Shown here piece after piece: positions 35,523 to 39,663 of a DNA stretch of 64,000 nucleotides. A program made the translations under genes and the position numbers. The stretch's first letter is position 1, and the number at the start of each line of letters is the position of its first letter. The notes under the pieces were generated by a model. It was not told the DNA's origin and did not search any database. It saw only the letters and a list, made by a program, of their open reading frames with translations. Origin of the DNA: Flavobacterium salilacus subsp. salilacus (GTDB lineage Bacteria > Bacteroidota > Bacteroidia > Flavobacteriales > Flavobacteriaceae); NCBI RefSeq assembly GCF_004634195.1, contig NZ_SKBP01000003.1, positions 186,001 to 250,000 on the forward strand, read 5' to 3'.

Positions 35523-36065
35523 CTAATCAATTAAGTTCTTTTTTGCAGGAGTATATTTTTCTACCATAACTCCGTCACCATCATTATCATAGGTTTCTAC
35601 AACTAAGTTACCATCCGCATCAAAATATCCGAAAGAAGTTTTATTCTCAGTTTTATAAATATAGTTATTGTTTGATGTTTTTCTCAGCACACCGTGATTA
35701 AGATTTTCAGGAGTAGAAATTTTGTACCCTTTTTTATCTTTAACAAAACTATAGTTGGTACCGTTCATGGTATAATAAGTAGTACTGCCTATTTGGGTTG
35801 GTATGCCATCGCCTGAAATAGTTTCTGACTTTGTTACCTTAACAGAAGTTTCTTTTATATCCTTGTTCAGCTTATTAGAATCGGCATTTTTTAATTCAAT
35901 ATCCTGAACTTTATCTGTTTTCTCGGTCGTAACCGTTCTTTTCTTTTCCGTACCGTTATCAACAGTTGTAGTTGTCGTTTTGGTTTCTTCCGTTACATTT
36001 TTATTGACTTGTGCATACATCCCTGCACTAAGGCCAAACAGTATAATTAAAGCAATTTTTTTCAT
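35523..36065 (-). CDS. Secreted protein of unknown function
   Basis: The 180-residue protein has a signal peptide (1-19, ending GMYAQ). It has a Thr/Lys-rich N-terminal part (TEETKTTTTTVDNGTEKKRTVTTEKTD), a middle beta-strand region (TQIGSTTYYTMNGTNYSFVKDKKGYKI) and a C-terminal GYFDADGNLVVETYDNDGDGV with a possible calcium-binding DxDxDG-like loop. No family is recognised. It is probably periplasmic. The terminator at 35468 serves it. Confidence 0.7.
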   Translation of the reverse strand: MKKIALIILFGLSAGMYAQVNKNVTEETKTTTTTVDNGTEKKRTVTTEKTDKVQDIELKNADSNKLNKDIKETSVKVTKSETISGDGIPTQIGSTTYYTMNGTNYSFVKDKKGYKISTPENLNHGVLRKTSNNNYIYKTENKTSFGYFDADGNLVVETYDNDGDGVMVEKYTPAKKNLID

Positions 36066-36233: not shown

Positions 36234-37328
36234 ATGAAAGCAGGAATAGTAGGATTGCCCAACGTAGGTAAATCGACCCTTTTTAATTGTTTGTCAAATG
36301 CTAAGGCACAAAGTGCAAACTTTCCCTTTTGTACTATAGAACCCAACATAGGCGTAGTAAACGTACCCGACCCAAGGCTGGAAAAGCTGGAAGAGTTGGT
36401 AAAACCCGAGCGCGTGCAGCCTGCTACCGTAGATATTGTAGATATTGCAGGATTGGTAAAAGGAGCAAGCAAAGGCGAGGGGCTGGGCAACCAGTTTTTA
36501 GGTAACATTAGGGAGTGTAATGCCATTATACACGTACTACGCTGTTTTGATAACGATAACATTGTACACGTAGATGGCAGCGTAAACCCCATTCGCGATA
36601 AAGAAACTATAGATATAGAGCTACAGCTAAAAGACCTTGAAACCGTTGAAAAACGTTTGGAAAAGGTAAAAAGAGCTGCCAAAACAGGCAATAAAGAAGC
36701 ACAAACCGAAGAAGCCCTTTTAGAGCGAATAAGAGAAGTGTTACTGCAAGGCAAATCGGCTAGAGTAGTAGCGGCTAAAAACCAGGATGAAGAAGAGTTG
36801 TTGGAAGCCTTTCAGTTGATTACGACCAAACCTGTACTGTATGTATGTAATGTAGATGAAGGCGCTGCTGCAACCGGCAACCACTATGTAGAAAAAGTGC
36901 GCGAACTGGTTAAGGAAGAAAACGCCGAAGTTATTGTACTTGCCGTAGGCACAGAAGCAGATATTACCGAACTGGAAACCTACGAAGAACGCCAAATGTT
37001 CCTGGAAGATTTAGGGCTTAAAGAACCGGGAGCTTCGGCACTGATACGCGCGGCATACAAACTGCTGAGCCTGCAAACCTACTTTACCGCAGGGGTAAAA
37101 GAGGTTCGTGCCTGGACGATACAAATAGGCGACACCGCACCACAGGCAGCGGGTGTTATCCATACCGATTTTGAAAAAGGATTTATTCGTGCCGAAGTAA
37201 TTGCCTATGACGATTACGTGGCTTTTGGCAGCGAAGCCAAAGTAAAAGAAGCCGGTAAACTACGTGTAGAGGGTAAAGAATACATTGTGAAAGACGGCGA
37301 TGTAATGCACTTCCGTTTTAATGTGTAA
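36234..37328 (+). CDS. ychF: Redox-regulated OBG-family ATPase YchF
   Basis: The 364-residue P-loop ATPase binds ribosomes and modulates the oxidative stress response; it prefers ATP over GTP. P-loop GLPNVGKS at 7-14; DIVDIAGLVKGASKGEGLGN (switch II/G3); the NKxD motif of GTPases is replaced (CNVDEGA), which is typical of YchF. A helical coiled-coil (about 125-200) and a C-terminal TGS domain (about 280-364, with FTAGVKEVRAWTI) complete it. It is monocistronic, ended by a long hairpin at 37356-37404. Confidence 0.96.
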   Translation: MKAGIVGLPNVGKSTLFNCLSNAKAQSANFPFCTIEPNIGVVNVPDPRLEKLEELVKPERVQPATVDIVDIAGLVKGASKGEGLGNQFLGNIRECNAIIHVLRCFDNDNIVHVDGSVNPIRDKETIDIELQLKDLETVEKRLEKVKRAAKTGNKEAQTEEALLERIREVLLQGKSARVVAAKNQDEEELLEAFQLITTKPVLYVCNVDEGAAATGNHYVEKVRELVKEENAEVIVLAVGTEADITELETYEERQMFLEDLGLKEPGASALIRAAYKLLSLQTYFTAGVKEVRAWTIQIGDTAPQAAGVIHTDFEKGFIRAEVIAYDDYVAFGSEAKVKEAGKLRVEGKEYIVKDGDVMHFRFNV

Positions 37329-37355
37329 TACAGTAGTGAGATAATAGAATTAAGT

Positions 37356-37404
37356 ATAATGACTAGTCCTAAAACAGTTAGACTGTTTTGAGACTAGTCA
37401 TTAT
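37356..37404. terminator. Long near-perfect hairpin after ychF, border of the MBL cassette
   Basis: ATAATGACTAGTC (37356-37368) pairs with GACTAGTCATTAT (37392-37404), and inside it AAAACAGT (37371-37378) pairs with ACTGTTTT (37382-37389), with a two-base mismatch between and a three-base loop. TTTTT follows on the plus strand. It can terminate ychF and, from the minus side, the MBL gene. Its length exceeds normal terminators here. Confidence 0.75.
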
Positions 37405-37406
37405 TT

Positions 37407-38429
37407 TTAAATAGGTTCAGCACTTTCCCAGTTTCTTGTTGGAAATATTTCTCTATTTGTAGTGTATGATAATACCCCTTTCATTTTATGTGTACTGTAA
37501 ACATTACAATTTGGTAAATTTTTCTTCACACAACTTATAACTGCTTTTCTAGGATGCTTTTTATTACCCTCAGCTGATACTAAATACATATCAGGATTAA
37601 ATTTTGATAACCACTTTGTATTTACATTTCTTCTACTTCCATGATGTGGTAATTGTACAATGTGTAGTTCTTCACAATCAAAACCATTCTTTTCCATATC
37701 ATCAAAAGATTCAACCCCAGCATCACTGGTTAATAAATAACGTCTATTTTTACTATCAGTTAGTTCAATAACTGTGGCAGATAAATTTTCAGGAGAAGCA
37801 TCGTTTTTTTCATCTACAATAATACAAGGCTTTATATTTTCTTCATATTCGTCAATATCTATAGATGATTTGGTTTTAAAATCAACTTTTTTTAGAAAAT
37901 CAATATTTGTGAATTGCTGAACTTTTTCAATATAAAATTCTCGAGTAGGTGATACAACTTTAATTTCTTTATAGTTGAAGATTTCACTTAAAGCTTCTTT
38001 CTGCTCAATTTTATACTTAGTACATAGTTCATTAAGCTCATGAACTTTTTGAAAAGATTTATAAAGATGGACAATGTCTTTATCTTCTTCTTTTAAGGCG
38101 GATTTTTTAATGTTTTCTCTTAACTCTTCAGTAATAAATTTCACAGGATCGTTATAAAATCCCCAACTCAGATCATTTCCTAATTCATTTACTATTTCAA
38201 TTAAACCATTTATATGATCTGTATGTGGATGGCTATTAATAAATGCTAGAGTTCTTTTTTTGTACAAGTTCGGTTCAATCCAATTTCTGTAGTGCTCTAC
38301 AATTTTTTTGCCATATCCTTGACTTCCACCATCTAGAAAAAACACAAAGTCTGATTCATTTGGATTCCTTCCCCATATTACTATTCCATCACCATCACCA
38401 ACGTATATAAAATCTATTACAAAGTCCAT
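37407..38429 (-). CDS. ComEC-like metallo-beta-lactamase-fold hydrolase
   Basis: The 340-residue soluble protein resembles the C-terminal MBL domain of ComEC/Rec2 without the channel part. DFIYVGDGDGIVIW at 6-19 matches the VGQGD start of ComEC. Metal-binding motifs are SHPHTDH at 66-72, SDAG at 235-238 and LPHHGS at 260-265, and a late SAEGNKKHP at 285-293 matches the ComEC terminal HP site. An insert of about 120 residues (95-215) of acidic helices is unlike ComEC. It probably cleaves a nucleic acid or nucleotide. It is nine bases downstream of a four-TM protein gene. The DNA is AT-rich, which suggests transfer. A defence or competence-like function is inferred. Confidence 0.78.
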   Translation of the reverse strand: MDFVIDFIYVGDGDGIVIWGRNPNESDFVFFLDGGSQGYGKKIVEHYRNWIEPNLYKKRTLAFINSHPHTDHINGLIEIVNELGNDLSWGFYNDPVKFITEELRENIKKSALKEEDKDIVHLYKSFQKVHELNELCTKYKIEQKEALSEIFNYKEIKVVSPTREFYIEKVQQFTNIDFLKKVDFKTKSSIDIDEYEENIKPCIIVDEKNDASPENLSATVIELTDSKNRRYLLTSDAGVESFDDMEKNGFDCEELHIVQLPHHGSRRNVNTKWLSKFNPDMYLVSAEGNKKHPRKAVISCVKKNLPNCNVYSTHKMKGVLSYTTNREIFPTRNWESAEPI

Positions 38430-38438
38430 ATTGTTTAA

Positions 38439-38924
38439 TTATTTATTAGCATCAATTCTTTTAGTTATGTAATTCGTCTGTTTGCGAAATGCTAAGAGAT
38501 ATACTGTCCCTATACATAACAGAAGTAAGTACTTTTCTGTATTTTCGGATAATTTTAGAAACTGTGATAAATAGTAGTAAAATTTAGAAATTAGCAATAG
38601 AAACAACATTGTAAATAAAACTCTAAACTTATTACTTACTTCTACTAATACCTCTAATTTAGAATCTCTTTTTTGTGCTTCAACGAAAGATTTATAATCT
38701 CTAAACTTAATAATATTTAGAAACTTTAAAATAGGTTCTATAATAGTTGAAGAAACTCTACTTATGGTTAATCCAATGAAATAATATAAAAATATGCCCA
38801 GTATTTGATTTTCTTGTATCATTTTATAACCTACAAAAAAATCAAGTAGTATAACAAATAAAACTCCTGGGAGTAGATTATTAAATAAATTATATGAAGA
38901 AATTTTGTTTAACAAGTCATTCAT
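38439..38924 (-). CDS. Four-TM membrane protein paired with the MBL hydrolase
   Basis: The 161-residue protein has four predicted helices (about 15-34, 41-60, 101-121, 131-147) and a cytosolic loop of about 40 residues rich in charge (KFRDYKSFVEAQKRDSKLEV). The start LNKISSYNLFNNLLPGVLF is a motif I associate with small membrane proteins found next to variable enzymes in many bacteria. It is the first gene of the pair; its stop is nine bases before the MBL start. A 34-base perfect palindrome lies 40 bases upstream of its start. Function unknown; it may anchor or gate the MBL enzyme. Confidence 0.7.
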   Translation of the reverse strand: MNDLLNKISSYNLFNNLLPGVLFVILLDFFVGYKMIQENQILGIFLYYFIGLTISRVSSTIIEPILKFLNIIKFRDYKSFVEAQKRDSKLEVLVEVSNKFRVLFTMLFLLLISKFYYYLSQFLKLSENTEKYLLLLCIGTVYLLAFRKQTNYITKRIDANK

Positions 38925-38964
38925 AAGGAAGTTATTATGTCTGTAAATATATAACTTGGTTGTT

Positions 38965-38998
38965 TTAACAAAATACCCATTAATGGGTATTTTGTTAA
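38965..38998. repeat. 34-base perfect palindrome upstream of the MBL cassette
   Basis: The left half TTAACAAAATACCCATT (38965-38981) is the exact reverse complement of the right half (38982-38998). There is no T-run as for a terminator. It lies 40 bases before the start of the four-TM protein gene, in the promoter position, so an operator for a dimeric regulator or a recombination/insertion site are the leading readings. Confidence 0.85.
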
Positions 38999-39120
38999 TT
39001 GTCTTACTTTAATTAGTAATTAGATACAATTTTATTTATTTGACTTTATTTTTTCTCATTCCTTTAACATCATTTCTTCTCTATTTTTCGTTAATTTATC
39101 CAACATCAAAAAATATAAAA

Positions 39121-39663
39121 ATGAAAATAATAGCCCTTGCAGGAAGCAGTAGTACACAATCGATAAACAAACGTTTGGCAACCTATGCCGCCGGTTTGTT
39201 TGAAAATGGTCAGGTAGAAGTTCTCGACCTGAATGATTATGAGCTTCCGTTGTTTAGTGTAGATAAAGAAAAAGAGATGGGTCAACCCCAAATAGCGCGC
39301 GCCTTTCTCGATAAAATCGGTAGTGCCGGTATAATCGTGCTCTCCGTTGCCGAACACAATGCCGGGCTAACCGCAGCATTTAAAAATAGTTACGACTGGG
39401 CATCGCGCCAGCATAAAAAAGTATGGCAGGATATACCCATGCTGCTCATGAGTACTTCGCCCGGGGGTTATGGCGGTAAAAATGCCATGGAAGCTGCCAA
39501 AATAAGCCTTCCGCGTTATGGCGGAAACATCCGCGCTACATTTTCGCTGCCCTCATTCAATGAAAATTTTGATGTGGAAGCCGGTAAAATATCCAATAAA
39601 GAGCACGATGATGCGTTAAAGGATATTATACGCAACTTCGACTATGGCAAAGAAGGCTCTTAA
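39121..39663 (+). CDS. NADPH-dependent FMN reductase family protein
   Basis: The 180-residue flavodoxin-fold enzyme reduces FMN or quinones/azo compounds with NAD(P)H. I set the start at the ATG at 39121, where MKIIALAGSSSTQSINKRL gives the FMN phosphate-binding loop (AGSSSTQS); an upstream in-frame start at 39040 would only add a hydrophobic stretch. VLSVAEHNAGLTAAFKNSYDW and MSTSPGGYGGKNAME are the family's flavin-contact motifs. Cytosolic. It overlaps the next gene by 20 bases. Confidence 0.88.
   Translation: MKIIALAGSSSTQSINKRLATYAAGLFENGQVEVLDLNDYELPLFSVDKEKEMGQPQIARAFLDKIGSAGIIVLSVAEHNAGLTAAFKNSYDWASRQHKKVWQDIPMLLMSTSPGGYGGKNAMEAAKISLPRYGGNIRATFSLPSFNENFDVEAGKISNKEHDDALKDIIRNFDYGKEGS

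Follow-up and report, generated by a model that had tools for sequence, protein, structure and literature searches.

A pair of neighbouring minus-strand genes, one for a four-TM protein and one for a ComEC-like MBL-fold metallohydrolase, sits amid housekeeping genes in Flavobacterium salilacus subsp. salilacus, and raises the question of what such a unit is, how it came to lie there and what it might do. We examined it within a window of 64,000 nucleotides, by which we mean the whole stretch of DNA that was analysed. The initial annotation had taken the pair for an accessory module, acting in phage defence, DNA uptake or nucleotide signalling and lying between two long palindromes. The features concerned are listed below; the name ychF, and likewise the prfA-like, nadC-like, XRE-like and integrase-like names used further on, are presumptive and were given from sequence.

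36234 to 37328, plus strand: presumably ychF; left flank of the insertion, outside the system
37356 to 37404, no strand: 49-bp near-perfect hairpin (stem 23, 2 mismatches, loop 3) between the convergent ychF and MBL genes
37407 to 38429, minus strand: gene for the ComEC-like MBL-fold metallohydrolase (340 aa; PADLOC PDC-M48B family), proposed to act as a sensor/regulator or to hydrolyse DNA or nucleotides
38439 to 38924, minus strand: gene for the four-TM protein (161 aa; PADLOC PDC-M48A family), a proposed membrane effector
38965 to 38998, no strand: 34-bp perfect palindrome (17+17) between the divergent four-TM and FMN reductase genes
39121 to 39663, plus strand: gene for an NADPH-dependent FMN reductase (PF03358, E 1.8e-30); right flank, outside the system

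The gene pair and its insertion site

The layout first described for the pair holds: the MBL gene lies downstream of the four-TM gene on the minus strand with 9 bases between them, and the two are seated between ychF and the FMN reductase gene. The AT-richness claimed for them is equally plain, with a G+C of 0.293 in the MBL gene and 0.239 in the TM gene against 0.445 in ychF and 0.449 in the FMN reductase gene. Third-position G+C is 0.17 in the MBL gene and 0.19 in the TM gene, four other housekeeping genes have a G+C of 0.40–0.43, and a small gene near the pair (35523–36065) has 0.328. In 42 of the 46 relatives' loci that were long enough and had an adjacent MBL gene, the unit likewise exceeds its flanks in AT content, and low G+C is a family habit of the TM+MBL unit.

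The pair is PDC-M48, a candidate system already catalogued in PADLOC, and both models are matched from end to end: the M48A model PDLC04670 matches the four-TM protein (E 9.8e-57, residues 1–160 of 161) and the M48B model PDLC04677 matches the MBL protein (E 2.2e-194, residues 1–340). The PADLOC models carry no functional description, and we saw nothing in the structure of the window pair that departs from PDC-M48. Neither protein reaches the cut-off of any Pfam or NCBIfam model, and no messenger-binding domain was recognised in either with the PADLOC, Pfam and NCBIfam models. We found neither the name PDC-M48 nor an experimental study of the pair in the literature searched, which included few subscription papers and no preprints, and the available part of the DefensePredictor paper holds no mention of an MBL.

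The distribution of the pair bears out its description as an accessory module. A search of the genus with the FMN reductase matched 47 of 61 genomes, from which 30 loci were taken, one of them the window's own; within the stretch examined, ychF is also present in 15 of the 29 others, and the pair is absent from all 15. Neither the MBL nor the TM protein was matched in any of the 29 relatives' loci. The 60 other genomes of the genus hold no close copy of the MBL (five weak matches, E 9e-6 to 5e-5), and at E ≤ 1e-20 it was matched in its own genome and four others among 397 family-level genomes, and in its own genome and two others among 395 phylum-level genomes. The same pair occurs in Flavobacterium pectinovorum (MBL 73.5% and TM 59.6% identity), where it stands beside a prfA-like gene. 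Among the 15 relatives' loci, ychF and the FMN reductase gene are 119–412 bp apart in nine and 653–1,208 bp apart in six, mostly with a different gene between them. Because these gaps differ and the F. pectinovorum pair sits at another site, we conclude that the junction varies between genomes and that the pair has moved. Three other genes occupy the junction in the genus relative whose FMN reductase is most similar to the window's. Different small genes are held by the window's junction (37329–39120) and its counterparts in loci L126, L127, L128, L132, L141 and L158, and the ychF-FMN reductase junction is a possible minor integration spot in the genus.

Both palindromes are real, but the suggestion that they form the ends of a cassette did not stand, as they look ordinary and show no sign of bounding a mobile element. 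We rejected a role as mobile-element ends: by the same scan, hairpins of this class number 10 across the 64 kb, the second palindrome has a core that recurs elsewhere, and the direct repeats detected around the unit are all short and imperfect. The 22-bp core of that palindrome has one exact and five near copies (2–3 mismatches) elsewhere in the genome, the exact one upstream of a nadC-like gene, and the core read backwards as a control has zero genome copies. Since its position between convergent genes fits one, the hairpin at 37356–37404 is probably of the ordinary bidirectional-terminator type, and the palindrome at 38965–38998 is probably a terminator or an operator. Rfam gave nothing above gathering score within the window.

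Partner genes across the family

Searching with the TM family yielded 101 loci (the best 80 of 139 confirmed loci from GTDB genomes, plus 21 viral contigs), which became 89 distinct loci once 11 near-duplicates and one locus without a TM frame (L069) were dropped. The 21 viral contigs came from the TM alignment; scanning viral contigs with the MBL alone gave no confirmed locus. A script sorted the 89 loci into 67 with an adjacent MBL gene, 15 with an adjacent E1/JAB gene and 7 with neither, and we re-sorted them by reading and with Pfam. In this set, drawn from the best 80 of 139 and the viral contigs, the TM and MBL genes stand side by side in a unit without an E2-E1-JAB gene in 66 of 89 loci, and MBL, E2-E1-JAB and TM genes occur together in 17 of 89. 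The larger class gained L063 (MBL by Pfam), lost L033 and L089, and includes L082, whose MBL is split in two frames; the smaller consists of 14 of the script's 15 together with L033, L089 and L102, the last having separate genes, with ThiF and MBL recognised by Pfam, and E2 and JAB assigned by reading alone with no Pfam match. As for the rest, a DDE transposase gene interrupts the MBL in L024, L080 has just a JAB-like remnant, L067 and L078 have no MBL in reach, and L109 and L122 end at a contig edge. The initial annotation had allowed that the two genes might never co-occur elsewhere; they do so in most of the 89 loci. Their order is free, with the MBL gene downstream of the TM gene in line in 46, upstream in line in 14 and convergent in 8 of 68 placements (again from the best 80 of 139 and the viral contigs).

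Hosts of the TM family are found in Bacteroidota, Pseudomonadota, Planctomycetota, Cyanobacteriota, Bacillota and several candidate phyla. On a tree of the TM proteins (93 rows, built by a quick method, with 43 of 90 inner branches open and many weak forks), the two-gene and E2-E1-JAB states require 11 changes, at least four of them forced by well-supported branches, against 15.8 in shuffles, and all seven partner labels together require 36 changes against 49.0 when shuffled. Because the changes are many yet fewer than shuffled, the partners are clustered yet have been repeatedly re-paired. In loci L047, L073 and L100, a two-gene TM+MBL unit lies within a few kb of an MBL + E2-E1-JAB pair. In another locus (L007:382-2541), a related MBL is preceded by an XRE-like regulator and by a membrane protein of a different kind, with an integrase-like fragment alongside.

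The E2-E1-JAB loci connect the TM family to 6A-MBL (NCBIfam NF058523/NF058524), named an anti-phage system in NCBIfam and corresponding to operon type 6a. The cap2_3 model of 6A-MBL matches both of the E2-E1-JAB proteins scanned with it (L040 above cut-off, L058 just below), and the 6A-MBL_enzyme model matches four of the linked MBLs (L040, L033 and L098 above cut-off, L058 just below). Pfam recognises Prok-E2_A, ThiF and Prok-JAB within a single protein in L031, L035, L065 and L096, and ThiF and Prok-JAB in separate genes in L072; the remaining E2-E1-JAB proteins were assigned by their resemblance to three seeds. In the available part of the account of operon type 6a, an E2-E1-JAB triple-module protein almost always adjoins an MBL, usually as two genes, and a four-TM gene is not mentioned (Iyer et al. 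2006, PMC1779556). The TM proteins of L058 and of the window match nothing in NCBIfam. The window pair resembles 6A-MBL in that the MBL partner is of the same broad class and in that the same four-TM family supplies a further gene in the 17 loci. It differs in that the window's genome has no cap2_3 match at E ≤ 1e-30, and in that the window MBL reaches 20.4 of 220 bits on the enzyme model, far below cut-off, and ends in NWESAEPI, without a Gly tail.

What occupies the third position in these operons was examined in 296 genomes of the window's phylum, 10 of which match cap2_3 at E ≤ 1e-30, five of them above cut-off. In all five above-cut-off 6A-MBL loci, a patatin phospholipase stands in the third slot with the MBL and cap2_3; one further locus with cap2_3 below cut-off (L166) has an MBL but no recognised third gene, and the four weakest cap2_3 loci show no MBL. 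The TM gene was found within the 1.5-kb flanks of none of the 10, including the six that bear an MBL, so it is one option in the third slot; and because the above-cut-off 6A-MBL loci of this phylum carry patatin there, the TM gene and the phospholipase share one slot in different operons. Two other loci hold a PDC-M48B-related MBL, which in one has a patatin phospholipase on one side and a TIR-domain protein on the other (L016:61-3358), and which lies beside a patatin and near a ThiF protein on a Hymenobacter plasmid in the other (L012:2610-8419), and their neighbours suggest further effector choices.

The MBLs of the two forms differ at their C-termini. A Gly lies in the last three residues of 14 of 18 E2-E1-JAB-linked MBLs but of only 1 of 74 TM-adjacent two-gene MBLs, a contrast that the Fisher value of 3e-12 overstates, given the kinship of the sequences and the near-copies among the 74. 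The linked MBLs mostly end in YG, HG or AG plus 0–4 residues (for example L031, L033, L058, L084, L089 and L098), and the six MBLs of the cap2_3 loci (L161–L166), which stand outside the 14 of 18, end in Gly or one residue past Gly. In type II CBASS, according to the available parts of two papers, the cyclase ends in a conserved Gly/Ala, which Cap2 attaches to targets and Cap3 cleaves (PMC10097602, PMC11153139). By analogy, the MBL may be the conjugated protein in 6A-MBL, by way of the adjacent Cap2-like protein. The E2-E1-JAB form is analogous to type II CBASS in its Gly-tailed enzyme, E2-E1, JAB, and patatin or membrane protein; it differs in having an MBL for the cyclase and no known messenger, and the window pair is further removed in being without Cap2/Cap3. 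Neither protein of the pair matches a CD-NTase cyclase model in PADLOC, Pfam or NCBIfam. We tentatively propose, at somewhat less than even confidence, that PDC-M48 and 6A-MBL are the two-gene and the ubiquitin-like-primed forms of one CBASS-like family, in which the MBL replaces the cyclase, its Gly tail is reversibly conjugated, and the four-TM protein and patatin are interchangeable membrane effectors. In that case the MBL would make or break down a messenger, or infection would act on it as a direct switch. The window pair appears to be a stripped-down form of this bacterial ubiquitin-like immune system.

The two proteins and how they may act

The four-TM reading of the small protein is upheld by a confident AF2 model (pLDDT 91) with four long membrane helices, the modelled helices spanning residues 10–30, 40–68, 77–86, 89–123 and 127–160. 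The family carries the motif SYNxFNxLxPG ... KQTxYIxKR, and Y11, N12, F14, P19, G20, Y48, G51, E95, N98, R101, K148, Q149 and R156 are invariant in a 63-row alignment. Two stretches are rich in Lys/Arg (10 K/R in 56–103 and 5 in 146–161) and hold the invariant polar residues E95, N98, R101, K148, Q149 and R156; by the positive-inside rule these stretches would face the cytosol, and their polar face is a plausible docking face. Sequence and fold searches found no characterised relative: Foldseek returned no PDB or BFVD match at E ≤ 0.001, and the best VIA-align Z among 57 chains was 3.9, from which we claim no relative.

The larger protein is a ComEC-like MBL, as first described. Among solved structures it most resembles the ComEC MBL domain 9ic4 (Foldseek E 3.5e-11), with whose HxxxDH, D, HHG and HP motifs its own align, and the motifs are intact (H67-x-H69-x-D71-H72, T234-x-D236, H262-H263-G264, H292-P293), although Pfam Lactamase_B stays below cut-off at 15 of 22.7 bits. 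The model has a pLDDT of 77, with residues 176–204 and 207–210 unreliable. An insert of about 120 residues had been noted and called acidic; the insert (about residues 92–212) exists and, at 119–131 residues in all 23 aligned sequences, is a family feature, but it is near neutral (26 D/E against 21 K/R). DNA uptake, one of the roles first considered, finds no support, since the protein shares the fold and metal motifs of ComEC/Rec2 but has the MBL part alone (27.6 of 190 bits on ComEC_Rec2) and no channel.

These likenesses bear on whether the MBL itself could be the killer. Its structural matches are led by nucleases (ComEC, then RNase Z and RNase J), with beta-lactamases and lactonases also listed, and the PADLOC models of the ComEC-like defence MBLs Avs1a of AVAST type 1, LmuA of Lamassu and the RT-associated MBL match it at 5e-09, 2.3e-25 and 2.5e-22, respectively. 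Tested for membership of AVAST type 1, the protein scores 41.6 of 420 bits for Avs1a, below cut-off. In these systems the MBL is partnered by a STAND ATPase, an SMC protein and a reverse transcriptase, respectively, and such partners are not among the genes adjoining the pair. The main rival to the reading we prefer builds on the same evidence: a membrane-anchored nuclease, in which the four-TM protein would serve as sensor or scaffold, recruiting and gating the MBL, which would cut incoming phage DNA at the inner membrane. The nuclease-like fold, the presence of every metal-ligand motif and the putative docking face all speak for this reading, which we nevertheless consider rather unlikely, as patatin fills the TM slot in related operons, suggesting an effector there. 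Moreover, 10 of 76 TM-adjacent MBLs have N, S or G in place of the first His of HxDxDH, with DxDH and HHG kept; some members may thus lack hydrolysis, a mild argument against it as the common killing step. The substituted proteins are those of L049, L054, L057, L074, L083, L087, L097, L100, L104 and L114.

The best-supported reading is, we infer, a CBASS-like division of labour with the MBL in the cyclase's place. We see about an even chance that the pair is a compact anti-phage unit spread by horizontal transfer, with a four-TM membrane effector and an MBL sensor or processor, and that it is the two-gene form of a modular family. The four-TM protein is favoured as effector because a phospholipase replaces it in sister operons and because, in the available part of PMC9122126, the membrane proteins of known defence systems are believed to be effectors. 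A cytosolic MBL would sense or process an infection cue and would hold or release the four-TM protein, which once released would act on the membrane so that infection ends with membrane integrity lost. This two-gene arrangement would be a 'type I' form; a 'type II' form, 6A-MBL, would add the E2-E1-JAB (Cap2/Cap3-like) protein to conjugate the MBL's C-terminal Gly tail, with either the same four-TM gene or patatin in the effector slot.

New here are the tie between PDC-M48 and the E2-E1-JAB/MBL systems, the exchange of genes in the effector slot and the difference in MBL tails. They give a catalogued, uncharacterised candidate a testable mechanism, and point to what may be the membrane component and the conjugation substrate of the E2-E1-JAB/MBL operons known since 2006. 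If the proposal is true, ubiquitin-like priming of immune enzymes extends past CBASS cyclases to MBL hydrolases.

Phage and defence context

Phage defence, one of the roles first suggested, remains a candidate that draws support from context: the PADLOC entry PDC-M48, the E2-E1-JAB operons and a defence hotspot of P2. The P2-like phages D8, 12W and P24E6b carry the pair, and in E. coli at least 80% of the two-gene query is present in 44 of 5,426 genomes, in every case on the chromosome. In both E. coli prophages inspected, the pair is flanked by the portal and replication endonuclease genes, a site of P2 that, in the available text of Rousset et al. 2022 (PMC9122126), was shown to be a hotspot holding anti-phage systems; the words 'MBL', 'lactamase', 'ComEC' and 'metallo' are absent from the main text as available. 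Among the matches listed (25 of 168 families) for 117 neighbour proteins from 66 relatives' loci are Gabija, AbiE, PARIS, Thoeris, type II RM and other defence proteins, each family in one or two proteins (PADLOC E ≤ 1e-25).

The window's own surroundings are different. As a control we used 27 of its 33 reading frames of at least 250 aa, leaving out the MBL and five over 700 aa, and none of the 27 matches PADLOC at E ≤ 1e-25; the window copy therefore stands alone. Such a setting, amid housekeeping genes, is what would be expected of a non-defence enzyme module acquired horizontally by chance, but the patchy distribution, the P2 hotspot and the defence neighbours of some relatives make this very improbable.

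Carriage by P2-like prophages can also be read otherwise, as would suit a toxin-antitoxin-like or maintenance module of mobile elements in which the MBL restrains a TM toxin. Tight coupling of the two genes would fit such a module, as would small plasmids on which TM and MBL genes are neighbours (Citrobacter, 5.5 kb; Arsenophonus, 35 kb). Free gene order is, however, unusual for co-regulated toxin-antitoxin operons, and the E2-E1-JAB context is a better fit to immunity, so that we think this reading improbable.

The MBL of a P2 phage (phage D8, L011:558-1643) is annotated as 'tail protein' in NC_049389 and belongs to PHROG 7043, which bears the same label; on this protein it looks like a misannotation.
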